Part shown: positions 40 through 64,000 of the stretch, piece by piece | Numbering within the stretch: position 1 is the stretch's first letter | Layout: every line of letters begins with the position of its first letter | Assembly (NCBI GenBank): GCA_021234155.1 | Contig: JAJEKV010000057.1 | Location: 5,673,821-5,737,820 of the forward strand | Source of the DNA: Isoetes taiwanensis | Lineage: Eukaryota; Streptophyta; Lycopodiopsida; Isoetales; Isoetaceae | DNA: 64,000 nt | Direction: 5' to 3' | Notes under the pieces: generated by a model | Told to the model about the DNA's origin: nothing | Seen by the model: the letters and a program-made list of their open reading frames with translations, nothing else | Databases searched by the model: none | Translations under genes and position numbers: made by a program

Positions 40-2235
40 TCAATACATCTGTTGTCCTATCTGCTGTTCTGGATTGAAGACTGTCGTAAGCCAAAGTGTC
101 TTGGGTCCTGTGTGTTTTTGCAGCCATGCTCGCGTAGCCTTGTCTGTCCAGTCCTCATTCCATTTGCTTTCATTTACCAGGTCGCTCAGGTTCATCCCCA
201 TTTCTCTGGTCCACACTGCCAAGTCCTTAAACCATCTACTGCTCGTGATGATGTGTGATTTTGCTGATTTGCTGATTGCAATGCTCGATAATTTCTTTAG
301 TTTCCCACCTGCATTGTCTCTTATTAGATATCTAATAGTCTTCTCCCATGCCCTCACCTCCATTGGTTTTACGCCTGTCTCGTGATATACTATGGTACAT
401 TAGTGGTGTGTTTGTTCTCGACTTAAATTCTGTTTATGCCCAATCGTCAAGATCCCTTCCTGTTTTTTCCATTTCTTGTCTGTTAAACCCGATCCCCAAG
501 CTTCAGCCCCATATAGCTGCGTCGTCACGACCACTGCACTGAACAAATAGCATTTGATCTCCCAGTCTATTATTCTACTTTTATTACATAAAATTTTCAT
601 ATTAAAGTAACTCCCAATGGCTGATTGGAATCTGGCATCTGCACCTTTAGCCCATTTCCCTGTGCCGTGTGCGTCATACCCCAGATATCTATATACTCTG
701 TTGATTCTTCTAGTTCTGTTCCCAAATACCTAAATGGTCTGTGTCTGTTCCTATTACCGAAGATGACTATTTTGGTCTTTGTAAGGTTTACTGTTAACCC
801 TGTCCTTTCGCAGAAGATTTCTAGTAACTTCAGTAATCTGTGCATTCCTTTGTTTTTTGTGGCCATCATGCTCAGGTCATCAGCATATAACATGATGGGT
901 ACCTTGGTGTCCCCTAGTGTAGGGGCATCCATGTCCCCTTGTTGCTCTGCTATGAAGTCTTGTAATGCATCTATGTATATTTCGAACAATGTTGGGAATA
1001 ATGGGCACCCCTGTTTGACTCTCGTGTCGCAGTTTATTGCCTGTCCCTCCTCTTCCATTTTCGCATATACCTTGTGATACATTCTTGCAATTGCTCCTAC
1101 CATGTCTCTTGGTGCGTGCATATCTATCAGTCTCTGTAGGAGCTTCTCCCTCGGGACTGTGTCGAAAGCCTTCTAAAGTCTACAAAGCAGCATACTACTT
1201 TCTTCCCCTGAGTTCTATTCTGCTCTATTAATATCCGAAGGGTTACTAGATGATCAGTGGTTGAGTGTTCTGGCCTGAAGCCTGCCTGTCCCTGTGCCCT
1301 CATGTTTCCTGTTTTTGCCCATTGCTTCAATTTGTTATCCAGTACCTTTCCAAACCATTTTGCAAAGATGGAGCTCACGATTATTGTCCTGTAATTTCCA
1401 GGTTCCTGTCTGCTCCCCCCTTTGTGTAGAGGTATGACCCTGTTGTAAGCCCATCTGTCTGGGAGCCCCGTCTGTATTATACCATTGAAAATGTCGGTAA
1501 CCTATTTCCCTATTGCAGTATATGTACACTTTAGCAATTCCACAGTCAATCCATATAAGTCTGGAGCTTTGTTGTTAGCCATCCTGTTTAGTGCCATCAT
1601 CACTTCCTGTACACTGAAACACGGTCTATCCATCTCTTGTAGTGCTGGTATTGGCGCTGGGGATGCCCCGGTCTTATATAGTTTCTCAAGGTATTTCTCC
1701 CATCCAGATGCTCCAATGCTGTCCTGTGTGTTCTCATTTTTCCTATTCCCCTGTCCCTTCCTTTTAATTCCTTTCCAGAAATTTTGGGGTTGTTTTTTTA
1801 GCAATTTAGCCAGTCCCCATTGGTGTTGTACCAAATTTTTGTTTCTCTTTTACTTTAGCATTCTTAAGTATACCGCCTTTTCTGTTTGATATGTCTCTCT
1901 GCCTTTATGCGCTCTGACTTTTTTTTTTGTTCCCTGCACTCTTCATCATACCATATTGAGGTCTTAAAGGCATTATTTCCCCTGGGCACTGTCCATTCCT
2001 GTGATCTTGCCGTCTGTGTCCACTGTCCATTCGTTTCATCTATGCTTGTATTTTGTGCTTGTTCCTGACCTGTTTTGGCGTTTAGATCTCCTATTAGGAT
2101 CATTGGTTCCTGTTCCTTCCATTTCATCATATTCTCCCCCAATTCTAACAGTTCTAGCTTATCACTGTTTGGCGGATAATATGCTATAATCAGAATTAAA
2201 TCTTTTTTGTTTTGCAATTGAATACTTAGTATCAT
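40..2235 (-). pseudogene. LINE endonuclease-reverse transcriptase, broken
   Basis: This is the coding part of a non-LTR retrotransposon read on the minus strand, broken into at least five open segments in different frames. From 2235 downward there is the end of an apurinic-type endonuclease domain (motif GDLNAKTG near 2070-2090), a linker with the reverse transcriptase entry motif NKAPDLYGLTVELLK (near 1530-1580), a GFRPEHSTTDHLVTLR block (1250-1310), the catalytic LYADDL motif (near 880), and a post-RT segment with TQLYGAEAWG (about 500). The final segment, 40-363, may continue past the window start. The endonuclease N-terminus is missing near 2235, as expected for a 5'-truncated copy. The domain order is that of a single-ORF or ORF2-type LINE. 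The repeated frame changes mean it cannot make a full protein as written. Confidence 0.88.
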
Positions 2236-3605
2236 GTATCTTAGTCTGTTCCAAAATCACACCACTTTGCTGCATATTTAGGGCATATGTTGTTGTCCTT
2301 TTTCTTTAATGTTCAAAATGTGATAGCAAAGGTATCATATGACTTTGTTGTTTTCACTTTATTGAAAAACCATGGTAAACCTATTTTCATTGATGAAAAT
2401 AGAAACATGATTATGTCTGTTCAAATCATACCAGTTAAGCTTGTTTTTAGAGCATATCGTCTTGCGGAGCTCCTTACTTCTTAGTTATACACTCCACATA
2501 TGTATATTTATTTACATTTTATTCGAAAAGCATAAGGAAATTACCTCTTTGTTTGGATTTACGATAAGTAAATCATATGCAATACAAACACAAATAACCA
2601 CTTGATTTATCTATATCATTAAGGAATCAATCCCTCTATTTGCAATACAAGACACTTAGCAACTGGAAACTACTAGTTGGTTCAGTTATTCTGTACTTAA
2701 AACATTTGACATATGCTTAAATTACATACTGTCGAGCCTATATATAGCCATGCATCCATATAAAATTGGGTAATTACAACTATTTTAGATGATGTAGTTG
2801 CAAATAATAATTGCCTCAATGGCCCTTTTGAGCCTACAAATGGGTAAATAAAATCATTCAAAACCACGCAAGGTCTGCTTGAAGTATCCACACTTTAATA
2901 AGCTACTTAATTTTGCAAGCGTTATACTTGGGTTTCATACAAAGGCGAGCCTTCAAGTAGAAAAGTCCTGCAAGGCAAATGGAACAAATATCAAAATAAT
3001 AAACAAAAAGAAGACACCCTTTTGCAAAGCACACTCTGCATGGTTTAGGATTGCCTCTTATACTCTGTTTAGTCTTGTTAAACATTAAGGAAACTATCCA
3101 CAGATTGACCTATAAATCACTCAGACAAAAACAAAAAATATACATATAATTTATACTCAAAATCAATCTAGGACATTATATAAGTGCTCTCAATCCTTGA
3201 ACAAGAGATGAAATATTAAGCATAAAATATGGACTCTTACCTGTCACTAATGACTTCCATTTCGTGGGCATCTTGTACTTGCACATGATAAAGACATACT
3301 TTTTAACTAAATATACAAATTTGAAGTTGGAGTTATACCGCTCAAAGTTGTGACGAGCTTGCCGAGTTGACCCTCCTGGTAACTCAGGATCTTGTCAAAA
3401 CTTAAGGCTAGATTTATGTTGGTGTGAATTTAGGTGAAGAATTAAATCTTCCTTTGCAATTGAAATTCAAGTCTAAACTCAACAGACAACTATGCTTATG
3501 CATTCAACATATTCATAAACTTAATATATTCCAATCTCTAATTGAGCAACTAGAGAAATGCTTCACCAAATCAATGATCGACCCATGAGGACATGGGTTA
3601 AATTT
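2236..3605. other. AT-rich stretch without a gene
   Basis: I see no supported gene here. The open frames are short, overlap on both strands and have no recognisable domain. The last part, about 3330-3605, could be the tail of a retrotransposon internal region because it leads into the purine-rich stretch and LTR-like start that follow. Confidence 0.5.
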
Positions 3606-18876: not shown

Positions 18877-18880
18877 TGGT

Positions 18881-18960
18881 AACAAAGTTTAAATTGAAAC
18901 GCACTTATTTGCTCCAAACGCACTTCAAAAGGAATCTTTGAAAGATTCCCTAAAAAAAGT
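18881..18960 (+). repeat. Left terminal and subterminal inverted repeat
   Basis: The first 30 bp match the right end in inverse orientation. After a gap of unmatched sequence, a second block at about 18935-18957 (TTTGAAAGATTCC then a run of A) also matches the right end in inverse orientation. Within the left end, GGAATCTTT and AAAGATTCC form a 9-bp hairpin with a one-base loop (18931-18949). The motif AAACGCACTT occurs twice. These are typical subterminal transposase-site features. Confidence 0.85.
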
Positions 18961-19283
18961 CCATTTTGAGGGTTTGTTCGTGCCAAGTGTGACAATTTAG
19001 CTAATTTAGGCACCTTTTTTGAGGGGTTGATTGAACATAGCCTGTATGCAAAAATATGTAATAGCTATTTTCATCCTTCTAATTTGGAACAAAAAATAGC
19101 TACTTATATGAAGTGTAGCAAAAAAGGGGCAATAAAAAAAACAGCAAGGGTAGTAGAGTGACAAAGAAGTGATATATTCAAAGCTTGTGAAAATTTTACA
19201 AAATTATGAACAAAATTATCAAAAATATAGGACATTTTGACAAACCCTCATCGCCTACACTTTCTGTTCTTTACATGTTCGAG

Positions 19284-22200
19284 TCATCGGACAAACTTAC
19301 ATTTTGCAGCAATACCAGGATGCATGTCATCCTCAGACTCATTTAGTCCCTGATCCGTAGAGTCTTCATTCTCACCTTCACTCTCAAAACTGGATGTACT
19401 CGAACGATCTTCTTCCTCACTTTCTACAAGTGAGTCTTTATCATCATCTTTTTTGGCCACCTTTCTAGGTTGTTTGTCTAATCCACATGCTGACCTTATT
19501 AATGTTTGAGTGACCGCACGTAACTTATTAGCAGCAGTCAGAACAAAGTCATATGCAAGAACCTTTACTTCAGCTAGATCTATGACAGCAATGTTTGCTT
19601 TGGACTTTGCTCTCCTTCCCACTCCCTGTTTTTACCATCTCCAAACTGTAACTCCCACTGAAAGCATTGGCATCACTTGTTCGCATCCAGTGCACTTTTA
19701 ATTGAGTGGGAATTCCATCCTGTCTTGTTACCTCCAGTACTTTAGCTAGCCAGAATGGCTTCCCAGATTCATCATTATCAGCTGGGACAGCTATGAGCAT
19801 TCCTTTCTGAATCTCTGAGACTGAACCAGATACCCGAGCAACTTGTTGTGCCGTGCGTCTAGGGCCAGTGTACATGACTCTGTCATCTTCATCTGAGCTA
19901 GCCATTATCTCTACATGTTCTTCTTGATTCTCAACTTGCATAGGGAGAGTTTGCCTAGATGGCCAGTTGAATGTAACTGGTCTTCGACCTTGTAATGAAG
20001 CTTGTAACATGTCACGTTGTCGAGAAAAAAAACTGAGGCCACCATAAAGCATCTGCCTCCCCAAAGTGGTTAGAGCATGACTGAATACTTGTCTCAATAT
20101 AATCCAATGATTTGTTTGAGTCAAATGCTCTTCCCTCCTTTTTACTCTTTGTGATTTCTTTCAAGCTTTTTAGAGGCATTTGCTCTGCAGAGAGCATAGA
20201 AGTAGTATTGGGGATGGTGCAAATGAATTGAATAATACCTTTGGTCGCCAATCTTTGCAAGGATGTGGCATATTTCTTTCCTTGTAAGATGGCCTTGCCA
20301 TCTACGAGTGAGAATTTGATCTGATGCTGAAATGTAATGTTTCTCAAGGGCTCAATTGCATAGCAGCCCAATTGATCTCTCCGAAAAATCCATTCCTTGA
20401 AATCATAAGTTTCTTCCAATAACTCGATGTCTGGACGAGGATTGTAGGAATCTTGAATAACCTCAATCATTGCTGGCAGGCTGAGAGCTTTTTTTCGAGC
20501 AAGACGTTTAGAAAACCTACTGAACATCTGATCAATATGATCGTGTATATGACCAACAAGCAGGAAATCAATCTTCACCTTCTTGAAGATTTGTTTCTCA
20601 ATTAGCATGGCACAGTAAGCAAACAATGCCTGATTCTTATTTTCTCTTGTCGTGTTGTCTAGCTGAAGATATAGAACCGATGGTATATGTTCTAGATTGG
20701 AAAGAAGCTTATTCAATATTGTGATAGTGAGATTTGGATCAGCATGAATGTTTGGATAGTTCAAAAATGCCTTACAAGATAGTTTCCCATTAAATACCAT
20801 AGCACCAACAACATGCAGGTGTATGAAATCTTCTTCAGGAGCATCCTTAGGCACATTGACAAAATGTAGTAGGGTGGTCTTCTTCTGGTCCATTCCATCA
20901 ATAACAACCGATATGTAGTTGTGGTTGTTCCAGTGCTTTCTTCCTGTGTTTTGTCAATTTTCTCCTTTCCAAAGATTGTTGTTCTCTGTGCTTGTTCAGT
21001 TTCTCTTTCAATGCATCTGAAATGAAAATATGTTCAGGAAAAAACCTACCATTGAGTAGAACTTGGCAAGAGCACGTTGTGAAAGCTTATCTTTAGTGTG
21101 AAGTATCCTTGCATTTTGTCTCTGAGCTTTTAATTCAGAGCATGTAGCACAAATAGACATCCGGTGCTTTCTAGGAATAGACACGCGGGAAAACTTTTTT
21201 TTCCAGAGCACAATGAAGTAAGAGTAGCATACATGGCGTTCTCCAGCCTCAACACACATGTCCTTATAATTATTGTAGACTTCACGTTTCGTGAAGTTGT
21301 CACTAAGTGGTACATAGGGCTGTTAGGGAGTTTCTCGCATGACTCCTTAAAGAAACCTTCCATCCAGGAAACACATTAAAGGGCATGAATTCTGGATATA
21401 CTTACTGAATGGCAGTAGTCATTAATGCCTGGATTCTTGTCAAGCCTTTTCTTCAGGCGGTGAAGTCGTCTGCTGCCTAAAGCATGAATCAATTTAAAGG
21501 CTGTTTGATAGATGGTGTGGCCACCAGCTGTGTAAGTAAACCTTTCACCATAATCTGGCCTAATATTGAAGGCTAAGTAGCCCCTTTGGTCTAGCAGAGT
21601 CATTGAACTATAATTATCACGAATCAACCTCAATTTCTTTAGTCCAATCTTAATCAAACAACGTTGAAAACAACAGTGCTTTGTATGTGTTGCCCGCAAG
21701 TGAGCCTCGTCCATAAGTTTCTTTCTTCTTTGCGATGTACATGCTTTCTTGTGTAAGTTTCGCTTAAGGTTTTCACTCGCAGAAGCTTTGAATTCGAACA
21801 TAGAGTCTTGTGGCTTTGCTACGTCCTCGTCTGAGAGATCAAAATGAGGAGTTTCTTCATCTGACACGGGAGCAACAGATGGTGTACTAGTAGAAGCTGA
21901 GAGGTTTGGTATGGGCAGGTCTTGGAGGGAGCTGCTTTCCCTCTCTCTGGGAAAAAGTAGTTGAGGTTGGTGACGTAGTTGAGCAGCTCCTGAAGTGTCA
22001 TAGAATACAGGAGTTGCGTGGCGCTGACTGCTCCCACTTAGTGTAGTATCAAGTACCGAGATGGATGGAGTTGGTGTGATTTGCCTCCGGGGAGCTGGAC
22101 TATGGGAAAAGGACTAAAACGAATTGGAGGAGGGAGTCTGAGCTCGTCCTCCCTTGCTGGAGTGAAATGAATGGGTGGAGGCAAGTTTCGTTGTTCTGTG

Positions 22201-22442
22201 GGATGTGGTGGAGTAAAACGCATTGGTGGGGGCAAACGTCGTTCAGGAGCAGGCTGTGGTGGAGTAAACTGAACTGGTGGTGGAAGCCGACGAATACAAA
22301 CTTCAGGGCTGGGGCTTTGAATATCAGAGACAGAAGTTTCGTGCCTACTACCTGGTGACTTTGGAGCAGGTGTGAAAACCATTGGAGGAGGGAGCCTGCG
22401 AGCAGGACAGGGAGGCTCTGAAGCTCTTCTATCTCCAACCAT
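19284..22442 (-). pseudogene. DUF7869-like transposase, frame-broken
   Basis: The gene runs from an ATG at 22442 down to 19284. The N-terminal region has five R-x-LPPP-x-x-FTP repeats (22100-22400). Then come an acidic stretch, a CCFQRC cysteine motif (21660), a short GT-AG intron (21405-21346), ICATCSELKAQR (about 21130), a second intron near 21045-21018, and the core: VVIDGMDQKKT (20880), YLQLDNTTRENKN (20650) and VGHIHDHIDQMFSRF (20530). These motifs are characteristic of the DUF7869 family of plants and animals, which I infer to be an RNase H-like transposase with D, D and H/D residues. The C-terminus has a Tudor- or BAH-like WLAKVLEV and LKVHW segment and an acidic tail. Single-base frameshifts occur near 22095, 21330, 20945, 20035 and 19625, mostly at homopolymers, so the gene may be intact in vivo. 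Confidence 0.8.
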
Positions 22443-22463
22443 AGTCAGCAAGTAGCGGCGGAC

Positions 22464-22583
22464 GGTATAAATTTATACGATACAGAAGCAGAAACGTAAG
22501 CGAACGGTATAAATTTATACAGAGATGGTATAAATTTATACAGAGAAGGTGTAAGGCTAAACAGAAACAACATAAATTTATAC
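22464..22583. repeat. Palindrome cluster 1, transposase side
   Basis: Copies related to GGTATAAATTTATACC start at 22464, 22506 and 22527, with weaker copies at 22548 and 22568. Spacings are 42, 21, 21 and 20 bp, close to multiples of two helical turns. They lie in the presumed 5' untranslated region or promoter of the minus-strand gene. Confidence 0.9.
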
Positions 22584-22862
22584 GAAACTTACAGATATTC
22601 GTATAGGAGACGTTATGGAGAAATGCTATACGGAAAGGCACAGAACAGAGGTACTTAAGCCTAGCGACGGCCGGTCTATTTTCTATATATCGTTGCTTTC
22701 GGTCGGCGCCAAGGCCGCATCTTTATATATCTGACCCCAATTTGCTCCTCCGAACAGCTATAAGCGAATCCATACGGTCATGGCCACGTAAGTCTCTAAT
22801 CGGTACCATTCTAGTTCCGCATCTCTTTTAATCTTCTTGTTTTTGTTTTGTCTTGGGTCTAT

Positions 22863-23229
22863 GGTATAAATTTATACCGAGTCTATGGTCCCGCGGTATA
22901 AATTTATACCGAGAGGGTTCTGCAACGGTATAAATTTATACCGCCGGCTCGACGGTATAAATTTATACTGGTTGCGAAACTCTCGAGATATAAATTTATA
23001 CCGCCGTGCTTTCGGGCGTATAAATTTATATCGTTCCAAAATCTCTTTATTTATAAATTTATACTCCCCGAGTGTTCTCAACAGAATCGGTATAAATTTA
23101 CACCGCCTCGAAAGACGAGCGGTATAAATTTATACCGTTGCAGAGCCCTCTCGGTATAAATTTACACAGAAAGATATTACAGTCGTTCAATGAAACAGTT
23201 CGTAAACACTTGCGGTATAAATTTATACG
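22863..23229. repeat. Palindrome cluster 2, methylase side
   Basis: Eleven copies start at 22863, 22895, 22927, 22954, 22987, 23017, 23050, 23089, 23121, 23153 and 23214. Four are perfect 16-bp palindromes GGTATAAATTTATACC; the others differ at one to three outer positions, with the central TATAAATTTA retained. Spacing is mostly 30-33 bp, near three helical turns, while the sequence between copies is not conserved. The cluster ends about 300 bp before the methylase start codon. Confidence 0.93.
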
Positions 23230-23817
23230 GGGATACCACTTGCGTGGTTTAAATTTAAAATAGGTGTCGAATGTCTAAAGAAATCCGGAACCATACTATT
23301 TGAACACTAGTGTTGTGTTTTAAGGTCTATTTCCAGAGAAAAAGGGGTAAAATAGCGCGAATTTAAGGTTGTTTAAGGGTTTAAGCAACTTTTCTTAGAG
23401 CTAAAGTGTTTAAAATTGTGGTAAAAAACTGTTTTTCTAACGTAAAAGGGGTTCTTTGCGCCTTTTCAGCCTCAAGCTTGTTATCAAAAGCAAGGGACAA
23501 CCATCGAAGGCACAAACGTCGAAGATGCAAAACTACGAACTGAAAGATGTGACATGGTACGTCCATAGGGGAGCAAGGGAGCGCTACCCCACTGACGCGT
23601 GGCGGATGATTACTACCCCGCCGGCGAGATGACAAGCTTAACTGCCACAGAAAACGAAGATGAGATTCATATGAACTGCGTGAACGACGACGGGGACGTT
23701 GTGTACATTCTAAATAGCAGAATGCTTCGTATCAGCATGTGCAAGCCTAAAGATGTTCATGATTACATTGCGGATAATTACAAGCTTGGCTATGTAAGTT
23801 GATCTTTGTGGCTTTAC

Positions 23818-23833
23818 CGTATAAATTTATATC
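23818..23833. repeat. Single palindrome copy in methylase intron 1
   Basis: One near-copy of the 16-mer (CGTATAAATTTATATC) lies inside the 70-bp first intron (23794-23863). Even this shortest intron region therefore holds a site, while the adjoining exons hold none. Confidence 0.85.
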
Positions 23834-24893
23834 GTCAGCTTCCTAATTTAACCTGCACTATAGGACATAGTGGACATCCTTTCATGTGTGACACTTTGTG
23901 ACGAGAAGGTTATGACCAAAGGTCTGTGGTACCCACGTTCTAAGGATGAGGTGGAGAAAGATAGTGAACCGAAAGAGGAATAAGAAGAGGAAGAGGAGGA
24001 AGAGGTGGTGACGAGAGGAAAGGGTAAGAGGCAAGCATTGGTAGTAGACACACAGCCCAAAAAAAAGTCAAGGACCACAAAGGCTTTGACTATAGAGGAG
24101 TCAGCAGAAGCGCTTCAAAAGGCCCCTGGGGCAGATATTGTATTGCGGCCCTCAGACAAGTCGAGTGCTATTTTGAAAAGGGTTAATGTGAGACCAAGCT
24201 GCTAAAGCAAACAATTTCTTTGACACTGAGCACAATTAAGAGGCCACCAAAGAATGAAGATGTGGTCAGAGTGCTTCAGGTGAGAAAGTTATACGCGGCA
24301 CATGTGGCTATCTTAAAGCAAAGAATGAGAAGGAATCCACATGCACATGTGTCACCACTCGTTGTCATGGTAGACAGAAGTCAGGTCAACCAACTAAAAG
24401 ATTATAGGAAGGCAGACTTCGAAGATTATACGTATTATGTTCTTGGTGGCACACATAGTTATAAAGCAAGAAAAGAACTATCAAAAGAAGAAAGCCGAAA
24501 CGAGGTCTGGAAGAGTGTGGAAGCGCACATTTATGTGGGGCTAACAGATGAAGAGGCTAAGGTCATTGCCATGAGCCATAATCTCGACAATGATTTCAGA
24601 TTAAAGATGAGCCTTATAGACAAAATCCGATTCATGCACCGAGAGTATGTGGAGTTCAAACAAATGCATGGAGAGGACTTTAAAAAACAAAAGAACAAGC
24701 TCCAAGAACTTGGGAAGCCTGTGTGACAGAGTGTTGTCTAAGTTATGATTCAGATAAGAAGCCCATAATGGCTGTGAAGCAGTATGACAACTACTTCCAG
24801 CTTGCTTTCAGAGACAGTCAAGTAAGTACAACATTTAAATGAGTCTTTCAATAGTATGTTTATCGTGGTTTAAACTGTGTAGAAGCATTGAGC

Positions 24894-25070
24894 TGTATAA
24901 ATATATACCAACCATGGAAGGGTGCTACTGTATAAATTTATACCGAGCCCTGGCTCGGTATAAATTTATAATTTATACCGGTCCAGGGCTCGGTATAAAT
25001 TTATACCGAGCCAGGGCACGGTATAAATTTATACAGTGGCACCCTTCCATGGTTGGTATAAATTTATACC
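24894..25070. repeat. Nested palindrome array in methylase intron 2
   Basis: Six palindromic 16-mers (starts 24894, 24929, 24957, 24992, 25020 and 25055; spacings 35, 28, 35, 28, 35) are embedded in a larger inverted repeat. The left arm reads ACCATGGAAGGGTGC then GAGCCCTGGCTC; the right arm reads GAGCCAGGGC then GCACCCTTCCATGG. The whole ~175-bp block can fold on itself and lies wholly within intron 2 (24822-25130). Confidence 0.92.
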
Positions 25071-26144
25071 ATGACATAAAACTCTGGTACGCTCTTCAAC
25101 ACTAAAGTACTTGACTTTGACCTTTAACAGGTGTGGGATCTTCAAGAAATAATTTTTTGCATGTTCGAGGATGGTGAACTTAAAGAGCAAACTAGCTCCA
25201 CTGGAAAAAAACCGAAAAAAGTAGTGAGGCAAAGCAAAAAAACATGAGCATTGTGCTTTGGACGCAACTACAGGGTCTCAAGAGCAAGGAAATTATTGTG
25301 CGCCTTTTAGAAAATGTTGTGGCCAAAGAATTCACTTTAAATGAAATGGCTAAGGAGGCTAAGACGTAAGCCTCATTTGCTTTGTCGTGTACTTTTTTTA
25401 TTCACTTAGAATTACAATCTTTTTCTTCTTCCAGTCAGAAGGACATTGTCACCTGTCAGTCCGAGTTGATGAAGCAACTAAACCTAGAAAACTGGGAGGA
25501 GTGCAAGCTTCTTTACCCAACTTGTACGACAGACAACACAATCAGAGAGCACGCGGTTAACTTCAGTGGCTGGGTGAGTTTTGCAGAAAACATGTTTTGT
25601 CTTCCAGCCTTTTGTCACACCGTTCTCTTTACGTAACAAGAAGAAAGGTACGCAATGGGCTTTTGAACCTCGGTTCAGAGGGGCCAAAGAGGAAAGGAAG
25701 AGACAAGGCCATTGAGCGAGGTGAAAAGAAGTCGGCTCTAGCGCTTTTGACACTAGCTACTTAAAGATTCACAACGCTTGGGTGGGGCCGGCTTTGTATA
25801 GGGTTGTCTGGGGGTGATTGCACCCGGTGCCGGGGACGCTTGTGGAAAAGCAAAACTTCACATTGTGCATAGCCGATATTCCTTATGCCTTTAGAATTAA
25901 AGATAGCGCCTTCGATGATGAGGCTTTCACGCATTCGCAAGTTCGTGCTTTTTTGGACGACCTCAAGGAAGTCACGCTATCTGCAAACTGGAGGGTAATT
26001 ATTTTTCATTCCGACCTGTAGACCATGTCCGTGCTCAAACCTATAGGAGCGGTCTGCAACGCCGGCTTCGAGACCTGTATTTGGTAAGCCTTTCATACGT
26101 TTAAAGCTCTTCTTTTTACTGTAACTCCACGGTATAATTCTTTC

Positions 26145-26286
26145 CACAGTTGCCTTGCTGTATAAATTTATACGGATGGAGCTGGTATAAATTTATACAG
26201 CATGGCAACCGTGGTATAAATTTATACAGCAAGGCAACCGTCGTATAAATTTATACAGCAAGGCAACCGTGGTATAAATTTATACC
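26145..26286. repeat. Palindrome array in methylase intron 5
   Basis: Five 16-mers start at 26159, 26184, 26213, 26242 and 26271. The last four are part of a 29-bp direct repeat that also contains GCAAGGCAACCGT. A left-hand TTGCCTTGCTG (26150-26160) is the inverse of this, so the array also ends in an inverted arrangement. It lies in intron 5 (26084-26358). Confidence 0.92.
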
Positions 26287-27454
26287 GCTACACTACTAGG
26301 ATTACTTATTTTCATTGTTTTCTTTCTGCTAATTTAGAATTACTATATTGACTGGCAGGCTGAAGACGAACGTCAAAGGACATGGTGGTGGTCCGCACTT
26401 AGTGAGCTGCTTCGAGCATTTCCACATAGGTTATTACAGCGCAGACACCAAAAAAGCCATGGTACATTTCAATACGCAGAATGAGAAGACGCCTCCATGC
26501 AATGCTTTCCAGTTCCCTGCTGTCTTGCAAAAGTTGAGAGACCCACAGAGACAAGGCGTTGTGGTCCCATTACCAGAAGTCCCATTACAGTGGTTTTGTC
26601 GCCCGGGTGACTGGATTTTGGACGCATTCTCTGGAACAGGCACCACAGCAGTTTGCGCCCTTAAGCAAGGGCGTAATATTGTTTCAGTTGATATAGAACC
26701 AGGCAAAATAAGTTTCATCGGGATCAGGATAAGCTCCTGTGAATCGTTTCCTGATGAAAATGAGGAACTGGGAGCAAAAAATGGTGCTGGGGATGTTAAA
26801 GGCACTTACACAGAAATCCAGCCTCCTATTACGGGAAGAAAAGATGAGGAGGTGGAGTTCGTGGACCTGGAGCCTGTGGAGCCAGAGCCCGCCAAACCGC
26901 CTGTTCCAATAGCATTAGAATCAGAAGCAGGCATCTCTGGCTTTGTGGCCTCACAAGAGACAGATCAAAAGGGGTACGAGAGTCTCGTGGACTGGGAAGA
27001 GCCTCTTCTCGTATGAATTGATACAGATAGATTGAAATGTCAATATATCATTGCATGGTTGTTTGAGTGCCTCTCTTGTTTTATTTTAAACTATGTACTA
27101 AGAATTGTAATACATATTTATGGTAATTTGTAAACTGAAAGCTTTGTGTCTTCAACAATGTTTAATTAGAACAACTCTTTCTTGCTCCATGATTTCAAAC
27201 TCTTTGTCTTTTTTACGTTTGATTTTGGTAAGTGTGCAAAAAGACAAACTGTATTTGCTTCTATTTTCGTCAATAAGAACTTGTTCAGTTTCCAAAAGTA
27301 GTGTTTTTCTCCTCAAAACAAGCATTTTTTTTGCCTGCTTTCTTTTTAAAATGAAATAGCTTTAAAAATGTTGCTTTTTCTGTGGTATTCCGAACGCTAG
27401 GTGCTCAACAATCTATTTTGCTCCCTATTTTGTCTGTTTTTTCAAGTTTTTAAT

Positions 27455-27516
27455 TTTTTTAAAGGAATCTTTCAAACGCACTTCTTAAATAAGTACGTTT
27501 CATTTTAAACCTTGTT
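27455..27516 (-). repeat. Right terminal and subterminal inverted repeat
   Basis: Read on the minus strand from 27516 it begins AACAAGGTTTAAAATGAAAC, matching the left end with three changes in 30. The subterminal block AAAGGAATCTTT with CAAACGCACTT (27463-27484) repeats motifs of the left end. It is followed by the TGGT duplication. Confidence 0.85.
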
Positions 27517-27520
27517 TGGT

Positions 27521-38924: not shown

Positions 38925-39122
38925 GCCAAGGCATTAGCCCCACAACGGCCGGGCACCCGTTTACTAGTTCCTACTTACAATACTTACAATCTTTAAATGG
39001 CGAAAAACACCAAAACCACCAAAAAGGGCGAAAATGAACCCTTAAACCCTATGGAAGTCTGCTAGTGCAAAATTTGTGCGATAGCTTCAATTCTCATTCT
39101 GACGGCAGTGCTGGTTGCGGGG

Positions 39123-42100
39123 ATGCTTGGGCATTCACTATATAGTGGTTTTACCTGCATTAGTTCGCAGCAGGCTTGCCAGGTACTGTCGTTTTATCCT
39201 TTAATTCATTCTACGCATCTCTTCAGTAACAATGCAGCTATCCAGGTTGAGGCTTCTGCTAGATTAGGATCCGGATTATTAAATTTGGCATGCATCAATC
39301 GAACTAGTCGAAAAATATTTACAGATTGTTGGAGCATTGTACCTCTAGCCTCAGATAGCATGGTAGAAGCCTCAGGCTCTTCTGGCAGTCCTTTAATTAA
39401 TTCAGATGAAAATTTTGGATGGTCAAGTGTCAGGGAAAATAATGTGGACAATTCTCAGGGTCTACAGCTTTCGTTATCAAGTTCATTACGGGGTCAAGAA
39501 GATGAATTTACAGTGGCACGTATAGAACAAACTGCAGCTGAGCCAACGTTTCTGGAAGAGAATTTTGGGCAGACCGATGTTTCAGATATAAGCATGGATG
39601 GTCCCAGTGGTGGAGGTAACATTGCACTGCAACAATTACGCTTAAATAGACCTTGTATGGAGGAAATAGGAATTAAAGAACCTAATAAAGCAGCCACTGG
39701 TTCTCTTATATCGTTACTAAAAGGTAATATAGAGGGTGCTGGCAGAGGCAGAAATAACAGCACACAGTGGAAAAACTTCACAGATGATAAAGATGGCTTT
39801 GAGGAGACAGAACTTGAATACTATATGCCAAAGGTAGGGGATCGTGTGATGGGCATTGTTGTATCTGGAACTGAAAACAAGCTTGACATTGAAATAGGGG
39901 CTCACAGGCTAGGTTTAATGATCCAGAAAGAAGCAATGCCACTCGATAAATCTGCCCCAGAAACACTTAAATGGGAATCCCCAGGGAATGTTTTTGCTGC
40001 CTCTAATATTCCAAATACTGGTCAAGCGAGACTAGTTGGAAGCCGTAATGCTGCATCCATGGAACATCAACCTGGACAATTTTTGAATGTCGGGACTGTT
40101 CTTTATGGACAGGTTATTGGCATAACCGACAGTGGTAGGGCGGTTCTGTCTGCACGGGAAGTTGCACGGCAGATTGCATGGCAGCGCATAAAACAGGTAA
40201 ATATTGAATATCTTTGTTTCAGGTAACACATTCTGGGCCAAACTATCTCGTCTGCATGCAGATCCGGGATATGGAAGAGATTATTGAAGTCGTCATTGAA
40301 AGCTGCAACCAAGGAGGCTTAATATGCACATTTGAGGTCTTATTGAAATTCTATATGTTATTATCGCGTTTTCTTGAATCATTAATAACCAATTTTGTTC
40401 CAAGAAAGTGGAAGTAAATTGGGAGAGCTATTAAATGGATCTTCATATCTAGTTCAAATGCTGCTGATTGTTAATATATTTGCTTTGTTTAAAACTAGTG
40501 CGTGTTTGCAGGGAATTCGAGCATTTCTACCTTTGAAATTTATACAGAACTCATTCAGCCCAAATTTCTCCTTGAAGGATTACGTAAGTCTTTTGGTTTT
40601 GATTACTTAAGCTTTTATAATGTACAGTTTAAATGATTACATGGGTTTTTATAGCGTCCTTGCTACATGATGAAAAGTGGATTCTGTTAGTTTTGGTATT
40701 ATAAAATGATAGTTGCAGGGGGGATTGTTTTTTCTTTGTGGCTGTGGGCAGGGCTCAAGGAAAACTTGCATGCAGGAGGTGTGCACTTGTCACCTCTTGT
40801 TGCTTTCATTTGAGCTTGAACGTATTCAAGTCTACAACATGTCGAGTTCTTTATGACTGCTTGGACTCACTGGTAGTGAAGAGCAGCCTAAGTCTTTCCT
40901 AGGAATTGCATAATCTGGAAATTGTGAGCACCTCCTTACGTTTAAGCTGATGAGATCGCTCTTCATCATGTTGTACGAGCTTATTGATGTGTTTGTTGAA
41001 AGTAAGGGGGCAGTTCATACACGGGGAGTTATAAGGAGATATGTGCTCCTCAAGCTATTTGCACTTTGCGTGCTGAAGTTTCATACCTTGTGTGTCAGTA
41101 TTTGATGTCTGAAAGCAGCAGTCATTAATAAGAATTGAAAGATTTAAACACTTTGCTTTAAGGTACCTTGTCTATATTTATTCCATATGTAGATGATCAG
41201 GTCCACCATATGATATGCCCTCCCATGATAAGATGGCAGAACTTCATGCACTGTGCTAAAGCAATTTTGAAAGATGGTCAAGATCAAAACCTAATCTTTC
41301 CATGCTTAGAAGTCTAATAAAAATACATATGAGATTTTCATGTTTGATGGTATAAGTGTGTAAGTTCGTGAAAATATGTTTATAGTGCTAATAGGAAGTA
41401 CTGAATTTTGACTTTGAAACCACATTTACTACCATTGGGCATACATTACGTTACCAGAATTCTTTGTCTTCGAGGACAAATCAGCAGGATGTGGAAAGGT
41501 GCTCTAATTACATAAATGCACAGAATGTTCATGCAGCCTTGAAGTTCCTGGTGTGGGGCGGGGGATAACCTTTCCCTCTCTCTCCTCCTTATTATGGCAG
41601 AAAATTGAAATCTCTTGGATTATGTCAGAAATTTGCATGGGTACAAAAAGAAATTTCTCCATGCGGAACTGGGTGTAAGCTTTCAACATTATATGAAAGG
41701 GGCACGATCTCAATGGAATGTGCATTATGTCTTTTCTGACAAAGCGAGGCAGGCTGAAGGCTATGGATCAGCTAGCTTTGAATAAAACCTTGGATAATGG
41801 CTGGGACAAAGAGGGATTGAGCTGGATCTGTATATGAGGGCTTACCATGGAGGACCTAATCCTTAATAAAAATAGGATTCAGGATTAGGTCAGACAGAAG
41901 TGGTAGGTACACTAAAAATGTGGAATATAGAGAATTGAGTAAATCCTGCTTTATGCAAAATAAAAAACCTGAAGAAATGCATACCAGAAACAGAGGCATA
42001 GCTTTTTCGACATGGCGGCTTTTAATGTGGGTAGTATCGTGTTAGATTTGTGTAGCTTTAAAGAGATTAAATAGATGATACAAATATATATAATAATAGC

Positions 42101-44799: not shown

Positions 44800-44875
44800 A
44801 AATGGCTTAAGCGATTTTGAGAAAATCGCTTAAGCGATTTTCAAAGGGGAAGGTGAAAATCGCTTAAGCGATTTT
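44800..44875. repeat. Subterminal palindromes, left
   Basis: Three copies of the 20-bp palindrome AAAATCGCTTAAGCGATTTT lie at 44799-44818 (imperfect), 44822-44841 and 44856-44875, just inside the left inverted repeat. They are followed by two copies of TTTTCGCTTTCTGGCCAGG. Confidence 0.92.
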
Positions 44876-45375
44876 CGCTTTCTGGCCAGGTGATTTTCGC
44901 TTTCTGGCCAGGTGATTTTCTGGCCAGCGACTTTTGCTTCATCTCTGCTAGGAAATTTCTGCACAGAACTTGTTCCTTCTTCCTGAATTTCGACGATTCT
45001 TGAACATCTTGTGCCAAAAGATTGATCTTGTTCAGTAATATGCACTCTTTGGACCGGAATTGCGTCTTTGGGATCTGCTGGATCACCGCTGCTAGAAAGC
45101 TCCGGCTCATAACCTGTTTCTTGTTTCTCAATTTCCACGATTCTTGAAGATCGAGCGCCGGAAGGTTGAGCTTGTTCAGAAATCTGCAGTGTCTGGGGGT
45201 GAATGGAATTCGAATTCTGTACAGAAAATGAGCACAAGGCCTCAACAGAGTGATGCATGACGATTTGGTGATGCGCATCATTTGAAATTGCCGCAGGTTG
45301 AAGTACGCCGGAAGAATCAGGCGAATCCACGACATTCAAATCCAAATGAAAATCCAGATTCTTGTGATTCGTCAT
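44830..45375 (-). CDS. ORF carried by the Mutator-like element
   Basis: An open frame of 181 residues fills most of the element. It starts MTNHKNLDFHLDLNVVDSPD, with a hydrophilic, serine-rich body and an internal duplication (SSRIVEIEKQET and CSRIVEIQEEGT), and ends in a basic tail encoded by the palindromic repeats. I do not recognise the source gene. Its presence between Mutator termini is what is expected of a captured host gene fragment. Whether it is expressed is unknown. Confidence 0.45.
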   Translation of the reverse strand: MTNHKNLDFHLDLNVVDSPDSSGVLQPAAISNDAHHQIVMHHSVEALCSFSVQNSNSIHPQTLQISEQAQPSGARSSRIVEIEKQETGYEPELSSSGDPADPKDAIPVQRVHITEQDQSFGTRCSRIVEIQEEGTSSVQKFPSRDEAKVAGQKITWPESENHLARKRKSLKRFSPSPLKIA

Positions 45376-45448
45376 CCATAGCTGCTGCGAATGCGGCCTG
45401 CAAGCTTTCGTTCGACTACGTTGTTAGCCCGCAGGAAAATCAGGCAGG

Positions 45449-45516
45449 AAAATCGCTTACGCAAGCAGGAAAATCGCTTAAGCGATTTTCATCCCCAAAA
45501 TCGCTTAAGCGATTTT
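45449..45516. repeat. Subterminal palindromes, right
   Basis: Perfect copies of the same 20-bp palindrome lie at 45470-45489 and 45497-45516, with a broken copy from about 45449. They mirror the left cluster, so each end of the element carries its own palindrome group. Confidence 0.92.
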
Positions 45517-47246: not shown

Positions 47247-47968
47247 AGTGGGATTTTGTCGGATGAGGGACTCTGTATTTTAACAAATTAGCTAAAATGA
47301 ATTCTCAAAATCGGCTTACGAGCAATATCTAAAGTCTTATTAACTAGGATTTGGAGTGAGGAGAGGGCCAAAAATGAACAAGCAAAGGAATGGAGCATTC
47401 TTTGCACTTCCCAACATCGCGTAAGAGCAGGTTGTTTTAGGGATTTTGTAAAATCCTAGCCGTCGAAGCAAAATTTAGAAGATCAAATGGCACGATGCTT
47501 CAGGAATGAGTATGTACGTAATGTTGTTTAGTCACTTTGGCTTAACCAAATGAACTTTACATCTTGAACCACCATAGCCTAACCAACTGGCCAATTAACC
47601 AACTGGGCTTTACATCCGGAACTAGCCTTGCCTAACCAATTGGCCAAAACATCAGGGAAATCTGCCCCACAAGCACATCACTGATGTTGTAATTTTCCTA
47701 GCCAACGAAGTAAAATTCTGAAGATCTAATGGCATGAATGAGTATGGATAACTTTCCTTAACCATCCAGGCCTAAGTAACTGGCTATAACATCCAGATAT
47801 TTACAAGAAATCCATCCCACCTTCCAAATGCTGTTGTTAAGAAATGCCCCACAAGCATGTCACTAAGAGCTATCTCCATGGGTCCGTTGCAATCTCTTCC
47901 ACTAGAACTATAATTGTCCTCGAGCATCATGCTTTTGCTGCGGACACAATCAACACCCTACTTCCCTC

Positions 47969-59725: not shown

Positions 59726-60296
59726 CATGTCAGCTACATAGTGGACGCCACGTGTACGACGTCGTTGAACGACGTCATGTACGTGGCTGCCACGTCAGCA
59801 ACGGCGCTGGCAATGCCGCGCTCGATAATGTTGTTTAGTCACTTTGGCTTAACCAAATGAACTTTACATCTTGAACCATCATAGCCTAACCAACTGGCCA
59901 ATTAACCAACTGGGCTTTACATCCGGAACTAGCCTTGCCTAACCAATTGGCCAAAACATCAGGGAAATCTATCCCACCCTCCGAATGATTGTGTCAACAA
60001 ATCCCCACAAGCACATCACTGATGTTATAATTTCCTAGCCGACGAAGGAAATTCTGAAGATCTAATGGCATGAATGAGTATGGATAACTTTCCTTAACCA
60101 CCCAGGCCTAAGTAACTGGCTATAACATCCAGATATTTACAAGAAATCCATCCCACCTTCCAAATGCTGCTGTTAAGAAATGCCCCACAAGCATGTCACT
60201 AAGAGCTATCTCCATGGGTCCGTTGCATTAGAAGTATAATTGTCCTCGAGCATCATGCTTTTGCTGCGGACACAATCAACACCGTACTTCCCCTCC

Positions 60297-62002: not shown

Positions 62003-64000
62003 GTCGTGGAGGGCGTGAGTGTTTCTTTCTTTTGCAAAACCGACATTGTAACTTGCTCCCTAGGATAATTTCGTCATTTTGGACGACTTGGCGAGGTCAA
62101 TTTGCCATTCCGGAGCCTCTCCAGTGCCCGAACGACAAAACACTGCGGTTTCTACAAGGCCGACCTCAGGACGCTCCGCGGTTTGACAAGTTCTCCCGGA
62201 CCGATCTGGAATCTTTTGGGCCTTCCCGAAGAGGGGCCCCTGAACGGAGGATCCAACGGTCGGATAGGGGAACCGGGCTCCGGGAGGGTGGTCGTTAGCG
62301 TGCGGCCCCCGGGGGAGCGCTGCCAGGAAGGGCTGCCTCGGGAACTTTTTTGGATCCTGCCTCCTGGGGCCCGGACTCTCCCCTCTTGTGATGGAGCCCT
62401 GCAAGGTCCTCATGTCAGCTACATAGTGGACGCCACGTGTACGACGTCGTTGAACGACGTCATGTACGTGGCTGCCACGTCAGCAACGGCGCTGGCAATG
62501 CCGCGCTCGATAATGTTGTTTAGTCACTTTGGCTTAACCAAATGAACTTTACATCTTGAACCATCATAGCCTAACCAACTGGCCAATTAACCAACTGGGC
62601 TTTACATCCGGAACTAGCCTTGCCTAACCAATTGGCCAAAACATCAGGGAAATCTATCCCACCCTCCGAATGATTGTGTCAACAAATCCCCACAAGCACA
62701 TCACTGATGTTATAATTTCCTAGCCGACGAAGGAAATTCTGAAGATCTAATGGCATGAATGAGTATGGATAACTTTCCTTAACCACCCAGGCCTAAGTAA
62801 CTGGCTATAACATCCAGATATTTACAAGAAATCCATCCCACCTTCCAAATGCTGCTGTTAAGAAATGCCCCACAAGCATGTCACTAAGAGCTATCTCCAT
62901 GGGTCCGTTGCATTAGAAGTATAATTGTCCTCGAGCATCATGCTTTTGCTGCGGACACAATCAACACCGTACTTCCCCTCCACAAGCATATCACTAAGAT
63001 ATATCTCCACGGGACCCTACCAACACCGTACTTCCACTCCACAAGCATTTCACTAAGATCTATCTCTACGGGGGGACTGTTGTAATCTCTTCCACTAAAA
63101 CTATGATCGTACCATCCTCAAGCATCATGCAACTACAGAGCCGTACTTCTCCATCCACGGTGGGTCTATGTGTCATCTGACATCCATGTCTTCCATGCCC
63201 CCACAAGAACTCGAACTCAAGATCTGCTCCAATACCAAACTCTAATACCAAAAGTATCATTCTTTAACCTACAGGCCTAACCAACTAGTCAAAACATTGG
63301 ATGTCTATGGGAAATCCATCCCACCCTCTTATGGTGTTGTTAAGAAACACCCCAAAATGGATGCCGGATACTGTCGTGGAGGGCGTGAGTGTTTCTTTCT
63401 TTTGCAAAACCGACCTTGTAACTTGCGCCCTAGGGTAATTTCGCCATTCCGGACGACTTGGCGAGGTCGATTTGCCATTCCGGAGCCTCCCTGGTGCCCG
63501 AACGACAAAACACTGCGGTTTCTACAAGGCAGACTGCAGGACGCTCCGCGGTTTGACAAGTTCTCCCGGACCGATCTGGAATCTTTTGGGCCTTCCCGAA
63601 GAGGGGCCCCTGAACGGAGGATTCAACGGTCGAATAGGGGAACCGGGCTCCGGGAGGGTGGTCCTTGGCGTGCGGCCCCCCGGGGGAGCGCTGCCAGGAC
63701 GGCTGCCTCATGAACTTTTTTGGATCCTGCCTCCTGGGGCCCGGACTCTCCCCTCTTGTGATGGAGCCCTGCAAGGTCCTGGCCTCATTTGACTTGGGGA
63801 AGGGTGCTAGCTCGATTGCCCCGCAACGGGCTGCCCCGACCGTTCTAATGCTAATTCTTTGACCTAGACCTTCTCCAAAAATTCCAAAAATTGGGCTGTG
63901 TGCTGGAGATGAATTAGGAATCCATCTGGCAAAAAATCAGAATTTATTCTCGTACAATGCATTAATTACGAATTTATGAGTGTCTTGCCCCTGCAAAGGC
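62003..64000. repeat. Tandem duplication unit 2
   Basis: The same order of parts as unit 1 but without the Mutator-like insertion. The last bases of the window equal 61981-61990 of unit 1, so the unit ends at about the window edge and a further unit could follow. Equivalent positions before the insertion are 2685-2686 bp apart. Confidence 0.9.
62982..63356 (-). repeat. Short repeat family, fifth copy
   Basis: Same family, inside unit 2 of the tandem duplication, reading the same as the copy 2685 bp upstream over the compared lines. Confidence 0.6.

Follow-up and report, generated by a model that had tools for sequence, protein, structure and literature searches.

A DNA transposon of Isoetes taiwanensis pairing a DUF7869 transposase with a ParB-like methyltransferase gene and a family-tied palindrome array

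According to the available text of PMC10398659, the VANC proteins of Arabidopsis VANDAL transposons bind arrays of short motifs in the noncoding regions of their own family and remove silencing. Methyltransferases carried by transposable elements are described, in the accessible part of PMC5890265, for retrotransposons of Symbiodinium and charophytes with DNA methyltransferases (DNMT) and for Dam-like DIRS elements. We examined a window, i.e. one whole stretch of 64,000 nucleotides, from Isoetes taiwanensis (assembly GCA_021234155.1, contig JAJEKV010000057.1, positions 5,673,821 to 5,737,820 of the forward strand). A DNA transposon of 8,636 bp spans window positions 18881-27516. It holds two divergent genes, for a DUF7869 transposase on the minus strand and a ParB-like methyltransferase (ParB-methylase) on the plus strand, and an array of one palindrome that is probably best read as the enzyme's self-recognition array. 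Here a likely target can be named: a single palindrome, tied to the family at all ten loci checked, conserved amid flanks of chance-level identity and kept in gene-less derivatives. Hence, self-marking becomes directly testable.

The element had been proposed in a preliminary description made from the letters of the window. Its 30-bp inverted ends (27 of 30 bp match in inverted orientation), the 4-bp duplication TGGT on both flanks and the two divergent genes, seen as open reading frames (ORFs) with DUF7869 (-) and N6_N4_Mtase (+), were all confirmed. Gene limits were read by eye and introns were drawn by hand. Both genes of the window copy appear to contain introns and are interrupted by frameshifts or stops; thus, this copy is a decayed member of its family. 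The ends and genes are as follows.

18877..18880, no strand: target site duplication TGGT, left copy
18881..18910, plus: left terminal inverted repeat, agreeing with its right counterpart at 27/30 bp
18897..18949, no strand: subterminal repeats AAACGCACTT at 18897 and 18916 and GAAAGATTCC at 18940
19287..22448, minus: transposase gene, intron-split, frameshifted in this copy, limits by eye; relatives in Riccia and Ceratopteris
19500..19925, minus: region matching by eye, approximately, the BAH-like C-terminal domain of homologue P0008 (residues 682-797)
20264..20839, minus: DUF7869 domain (Pfam) with IDGMDQ, LQLDN and GH(T)HD..D, RNase H-type catalytic core predicted by the structure model of P0008
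23525..27016, plus: gene for the ParB-like methyltransferase, in several exons, limits by eye; this copy is decayed
24187..24723, plus: ParB-like domain, part of an exon, with VLGGTHSYKA at about 24439-24468; at least 150 genomic copies
25875..25886, plus: methyltransferase motif IV, DIPY
26333..27013, plus: C-terminal methyltransferase exon with S-adenosylmethionine motif I, DAFSGTGTT, at 26621-26647
27487..27516, minus: right terminal inverted repeat
27517..27520, no strand: target site duplication TGGT, right copy

The source assembly (1.658 Gb, 1,110 contigs) was searched with parts of the element. At least 40 copies were recovered with the left end (first 401 bp; 89-100% identity, best 40 of 1,386 candidates scored) and at least 40 with the right end (last 401 bp; 40 scored of 1,204 candidates). 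For the ParB exon at least 150 copies were found (150 scored of 2,995 candidates); an aligned stretch free of stops was present in 104 of these 150, among which the best-scoring lean towards intact. Twenty of the 39 left-end copies besides the window's own were fetched with 10 kb each. The right end and a perfect 4-bp duplication were found in three of them, all encoding ParB and methyltransferase parts.

L015: 7,352 bp, duplication TTGT, transposase partly lost
L018: 8,837 bp, duplication CTTC
L028: 9,124 bp, duplication TCTT

With at least 40 left ends and three further copies having duplications of their own, the element is not a chance arrangement. As the methylase is present in all three other complete gene-bearing copies with the same terminal repeats, the earlier proposal of a eukaryotic mobile element with its own DNA-methyltransferase gene is supported. 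A ParB exon lies within 10 kb in seven of the 20 fetched left-end copies. Among the listed left ends, the window included, 17 of 40 have a listed ParB exon downstream, in the same orientation and no more than 15 kb away. From the other side, 14 of the 40 listed right ends (window included) have one upstream, in the same orientation and no more than 6 kb away, at 2.77-3.06 kb in 13 of these 14; a listed ParB exon on the opposite strand was found for none of the 40. These counts are lower bounds, because L028 has a ParB exon yet stands outside the list of 150. In those fetched copies without ParB exon that were examined, the element breaks off and other sequence follows, some of it resembling mobile elements by eye. 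Hence, the idea of variants with other cargo was rejected; the parts downstream of the break share only further pieces of the family. Two fetched copies on one contig, L012 and L019, have a common insertion starting TGTGTGACGTTCC at the same site, probably by segmental duplication.

The strangest part of the element was absent from the preliminary description. The window has 28 sites of a 14-bp palindrome, GTATAAATTTATAC, with at most two mismatches, all inside the element. Shuffling the element 100 times gave a mean of 0.05 and a maximum of 1. The longer consensus is CGGTATAAATTTATACCG; the palindrome thus measures 14-18 bp with the form (CG)GTATAAATTTATAC(CG), and 13-31 sites are present in each of the four complete gene-bearing copies, placed in the divergent promoter and in introns. 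In the window the sites, none assigned to a strand, are arranged as follows.

22465..22583: array 1, 4 sites, beside the transposase start
22864..23228: array 2, 11 sites, divergent intergenic region
23819..23832: single site, methylase intron 1
24895..25069: array 3, 6 sites, methylase intron 2
26160..26285: array 4, 5 sites, methylase intron 3
27011..27024: weak site with 2 mismatches, at the methylase stop codon

All 27 sites up to position 27000 lie in noncoding DNA, which accounts for 1,848 of 7,730 bp with the introns as drawn. The last palindrome is likewise near the methylase stop codon in L015, L018 and L028. Over the 27 sites the mean identity was 0.95 for the cores, a value partly set by the mismatch limit, versus 0.30 for the 12-nt flanks; between arrays, flanks reached 0.23-0.32 and cores 0.89-0.98. 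Array units repeat with periods of 21-63 bp. Palindromes were also more alike than spacers in the intergenic region of L018 (93% vs 81%) and L028 (89% vs 66%), which is weak evidence, because a column counted as palindrome when either sequence had the motif, and the L028 spacer value is affected by an insertion. Helical phasing of the sites was weak (R 0.24, n 22) and was dropped.

A pattern of two palindromes was found 5,115 times in the genome, versus 0 times for the reversed control. All ten array loci checked belong to the transposon family. They were the first listed places in contig order, a non-random choice; eight were read and two were placed by listed ParB exons. Coding or internal homology assigned C4, C13, C16 near 319 kb, C18 and C19, and the family ends assigned C2, C5, C8, C16 near 165 kb and C17, with one end only for C5 and C8. 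Predicted palindromic sites resembling parS are clustered near a gene for a ParB-like protein, as in ParB systems. In viral and prokaryotic collections, the pair pattern had 0 matches in viral_contigs and one in genome_contigs (257 billion bases, prokaryotes by description), a hairpin. This hairpin lies between what we take to be ClpB-like and TetR-like genes. The palindrome 18-mer was found in one viral contig, with no methylase recognised in its five listed ORFs. Phage or bacterial DNA as source of the palindrome was rejected on these matches.

Two gene-less derivatives with both ends and a 4-bp duplication were identified.

L031: 2,203 bp, duplication AAAT, 10 palindromes
L036: 2,168 bp, duplication ATAG, 10 palindromes

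No transposase or methylase was detected in either by tblastn. Keeping ends and palindromes is expected if both are cis-acting sites for proteins from full copies. Altogether, inverted ends and a duplication of fixed length, as in cut-and-paste DDE transposons, were seen in six copies (TGGT, TTGT, CTTC, TCTT, AAAT, ATAG). None of the six duplications is TTAA, the target of Kolobok and piggyBac. Sola elements have a 4-bp target duplication. A further gene-less copy, L032, is similar in build. Just outside its left end, a 43-residue DUF7869-like match was observed (L032:2355-2483); L032 may have inserted into or next to a second gene of this kind.

For the second protein, the ORF 26348-27013 (+) matched N6_N4_Mtase (PF01555) with E 1.2e-9 in Pfam. 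The motifs VLGGTHSYKA, DIPY and DAFSGTGTT named in the preliminary description are all present. Its ParB-like box stands as a motif, and a structure model of a fern homologue supports the ParB fold, with the N-terminal fold of ParB proteins predicted; no Pfam match above cut-off was obtained for the box, DUF6551 being below threshold (E 0.042). Motif IV precedes motif I, which together with PF01555 places the enzyme among the beta-type amino-methyltransferases. It reads DIPYGF in L018, L028 and L030 and mostly DAPYGF in Adiantum; hence, the putative counterpart of the catalytic motif (D/S/N)PP(Y/F) is DIPY or DAPY, altered in the second residue. A GGxHS motif, whose register relative to ParB Box II was inferred without an alignment tool, is shared by the window, many Adiantum proteins, P0046 and P0003. 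A profile of the methylase, scored against the 7,994 candidates with most shared words, found 39 proteins: 35 of Adiantum nelumboides, three of A. capillus-veneris and P0046. The last is labelled Gb_10123, presumably a gene name in Ginkgo style. These relatives sit on contigs of different lengths and thus at many places. P0003 was a further relative from a single-sequence search, and a sequence search of the PDB with A4 matched RsrI and one putative methylase.

Selection was examined by Nei-Gojobori counts of nonsynonymous (dN) and synonymous (dS) divergence across copies. For the ParB exon the median dN was 0.025 and the median dS 0.181 (8 copies, 28 pairs). The window and L028 differed by dN 0.033 and dS 0.905 (101 codons), and L038 gave a like pattern (dN 0.027, dS 0.835; 123 codons). 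The corresponding values were 0.033 and 0.074 for the transposase core (16 copies, 120 pairs) and 0.046 and 0.136 for the C-terminal methyltransferase (5 copies, 10 pairs), where pairs with L028 had ratios of 0.12-0.16. The ParB part is under strong purifying selection and, by these ratios, is kept more strictly than the transposase. This speaks against a gene carried along by accident. Both L028 and L030 are mosaics, with a transposase half 92-96% like the window and a remainder of 81-89%. The ParB exons of L028, L030 and L038 differ from the window by dS 0.5-0.9, above the transposase (0.08 in L028, 0.07 in L030), and in L028 even above the divergence of the introns. The simplest guess is an exchange of modules between element lineages; an excess of synonymous change is the other reading. 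L037 (ParB 55%), considered as a diverged lineage with the same palindromes, was rejected; its frameshifts and stops mark a decayed copy, which was therefore not used for protein divergence.

The transposase ORF 20012-20893 (-) matched DUF7869 (PF25273) in Pfam with E 1.2e-51; the domain coordinates above were derived from the residues of this match. A structure model gives it a core of the integrase/mariner type and a BAH-like tail, and the acidic triad of an RNase H-type transposase was recognised. By sequence, the PDB gave one match only, a tRNA-ligase (E 0.18). The motifs IDGMDQ, LQLDN and GHIHDHID reported earlier are present, the last in a form that looks mutated, since 12 of the other 20 fetched copies have GHTHDQID and none has GHIHDHID. 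The transposase search found 21 relatives, of which those with a species name belong to Riccia sorocarpa and Ceratopteris richardii. DUF7869 in viral contigs was dismissed as well (110 pattern matches, 0 confirmed).

These results suggest the following course. The DUF7869 transposase, with its integrase-like DDE/D core and a BAH-like tail that may read chromatin, would act on the inverted ends and produce the 4-bp duplications. The second protein is a ParB-like domain joined to a beta-type amino-methyltransferase. Like ParB on parS it would dock on the palindromes, probably as a dimer, and methylate DNA there. Adenine N6 is favoured as the methylated base because of the D-x-P-Y motif. Methylation would mark every copy of the element, gene-less ones included, and could either shield the copies from silencing by the host or adjust expression and transposition. 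According to the preliminary description, the enzyme may label the element, separate element from host DNA or control transposition after replication. It is likely that some protein of the element reads the palindromes, and less so, though still probable, that this reader is the ParB-methylase. A private epigenetic mark of the family, a self/non-self marking system assembled from bacterial parts in which a ParB-derived reader brings an amino-methyltransferase that writes N6-methyladenine (6mA) or N4-methylcytosine (4mC) on its own arrays, including those of gene-less copies, comes close to an even chance without reaching it. Anti-silencing as purpose is more tentative still.

Several observations weigh against this self-recognition by the ParB-methylase. 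A ParB exon is absent within 10 kb in 13 of the 20 fetched left-end copies, for four of which one is listed at 10-15 kb, and no copy turned up in which both genes are unbroken, in frames that were not checked exhaustively. The C-terminal methyltransferase is weakly constrained between the window and its three close copies (ratio 0.48-0.77), and the exon has stops in these three of five copies. In the structure model of the fern homologue P0002 the methyltransferase part is unreliable. The nucleotide-binding arginine of Box II appears to be replaced (GGxHS); hence, the clamp formed with cytidine triphosphate may not form. Foldseek alone found nothing in the PDB for DUF7869 at E <= 0.001, the best match having 6e-3. 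Furthermore, L032 has 9 palindromes and no matching duplication in its flanks, and in L033 and L034 one end each was found. Finally, the palindromes might serve other factors instead: sites of the transposase or of a host factor, or two-way TATA-type promoter repeats, unrelated to the methylase. TATAAAT on both strands of the palindrome word and the position of 15 of the 28 sites between the divergent genes speak for this explanation, and ends and palindromes retained without genes would suit a transposase or host site too. In contrast, 12 of the 28 lie in the hand-drawn methylase introns, where promoter boxes are unexpected, and none in the transposase gene. The usual sites of transposases are subterminal repeats, and the element has separate ones of other sequence, with related words close to the right end (27464, 27474, 27491), as candidate transposase sites. 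On balance we regard this explanation as rather unlikely.

That the methylase is a captured passenger without a role in the element, and the palindromes a small satellite spread by slippage, is improbable. The missing unbroken pair of genes would fit a passenger, and the site totals (13-31 in the four complete gene-bearing copies) and periods of 21-63 bp would fit such a satellite; yet the ParB part is under purifying selection, cores are alike between arrays with chance-level flanks, and the same word occurs in the intergenic region, three introns and the gene-less derivatives. A version of the self-recognition reading itself is an anti-silencing system like VANC, whose protein binds noncoding arrays and strips silencing family-wide. 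Its anatomy is the same in the portion of PMC10398659 available, with short tandem motifs in noncoding regions that expand and contract, and the gene-less copies here retain their arrays. The protein of Isoetes carries a methyltransferase, however, and we consider this version possible but doubtful. Very improbable is a role in partition or retention of an excised element circle, as ParB/parS for plasmids. It would account for the ParB fold and parS-like palindromes, but no ParA-like domain was among the Pfam matches of six window ORFs, the extent of this search, and the nucleotide-binding arginine is apparently lost.

Elsewhere in the window, another perfect palindrome, TCGCTTAAGCGA, flanked as AAAATCGCTTAAGCGATTTT, has 4 copies at 44826-45512 and none at other positions; it may belong to a different repeat. 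Fragments of a reverse transcriptase of the long interspersed nuclear element type were recognised by eye from ORFs at 600-2256 (-). A long open frame at 39066-40223 (+) resembles what we take to be an S1-domain plastid protein of land plants. A 53-bp tandem repeat (2 copies) is nearly the same at 47542-47647, 59849-59954 and 62534-62639, and lies beside a series of similar ORFs in the region from 59 to 64 kb.

The listings of a literature search that reached few subscription papers contained no paper on a ParB-methylase paired with a plant transposon or on such an array, none on DUF7869 and none on a Marchantia N4-methylase. Methyltransferases in retroelements (PMC5890265) and accessory proteins in DNA transposons (PMC9587614) are already known from the parts of these sources consulted; the array is the truly new piece. 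The DNMT and DIRS systems differ in being retroelements with C5 or Dam-type enzymes, and no palindrome array is mentioned in the available portion of PMC5890265. Kolobok-type elements are likewise DDE transposons with lineage-specific accessory proteins in the text of PMC9587614 at hand, but have TTAA duplications, and the word methyltransferase is absent from PMC9587614. The N4CMT of bdelloid rotifers is another eukaryotic enzyme of bacterial origin and likewise a beta-type permuted amino-methyltransferase; it differs by its SPPY motif and a chromodomain, and no ParB occurs in the text searched (PMC8885841, in part). Phage fusions of ParB with N6_N4 methyltransferases share the two-part plan (PMC12704722, as far as accessible), and phrog_498 and phrog_67 match the methylase part. 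Searching phages with P0002 gave 20 records; coverage of the query stayed below 80% in all of them. In contrast to the phage fusions, the gene described here lies in a plant DNA transposon, has introns and an apparently altered Box II. If the proposed reading is true, ParB/parS-type recognition would serve in a eukaryote for something other than DNA segregation, and the presence of 4mC or 6mA in some plants could in part be explained. By analogy, VANC is the closest working parallel. Both systems have a second protein encoded by the element, and in both the noncoding regions of the family contain arrays of short motifs (PMC10398659, available text), here with one weak site at a stop codon. Unlike VANDAL, the Isoetes element combines a perfect palindrome, a protein with ParB and methyltransferase parts and a DUF7869 transposase.

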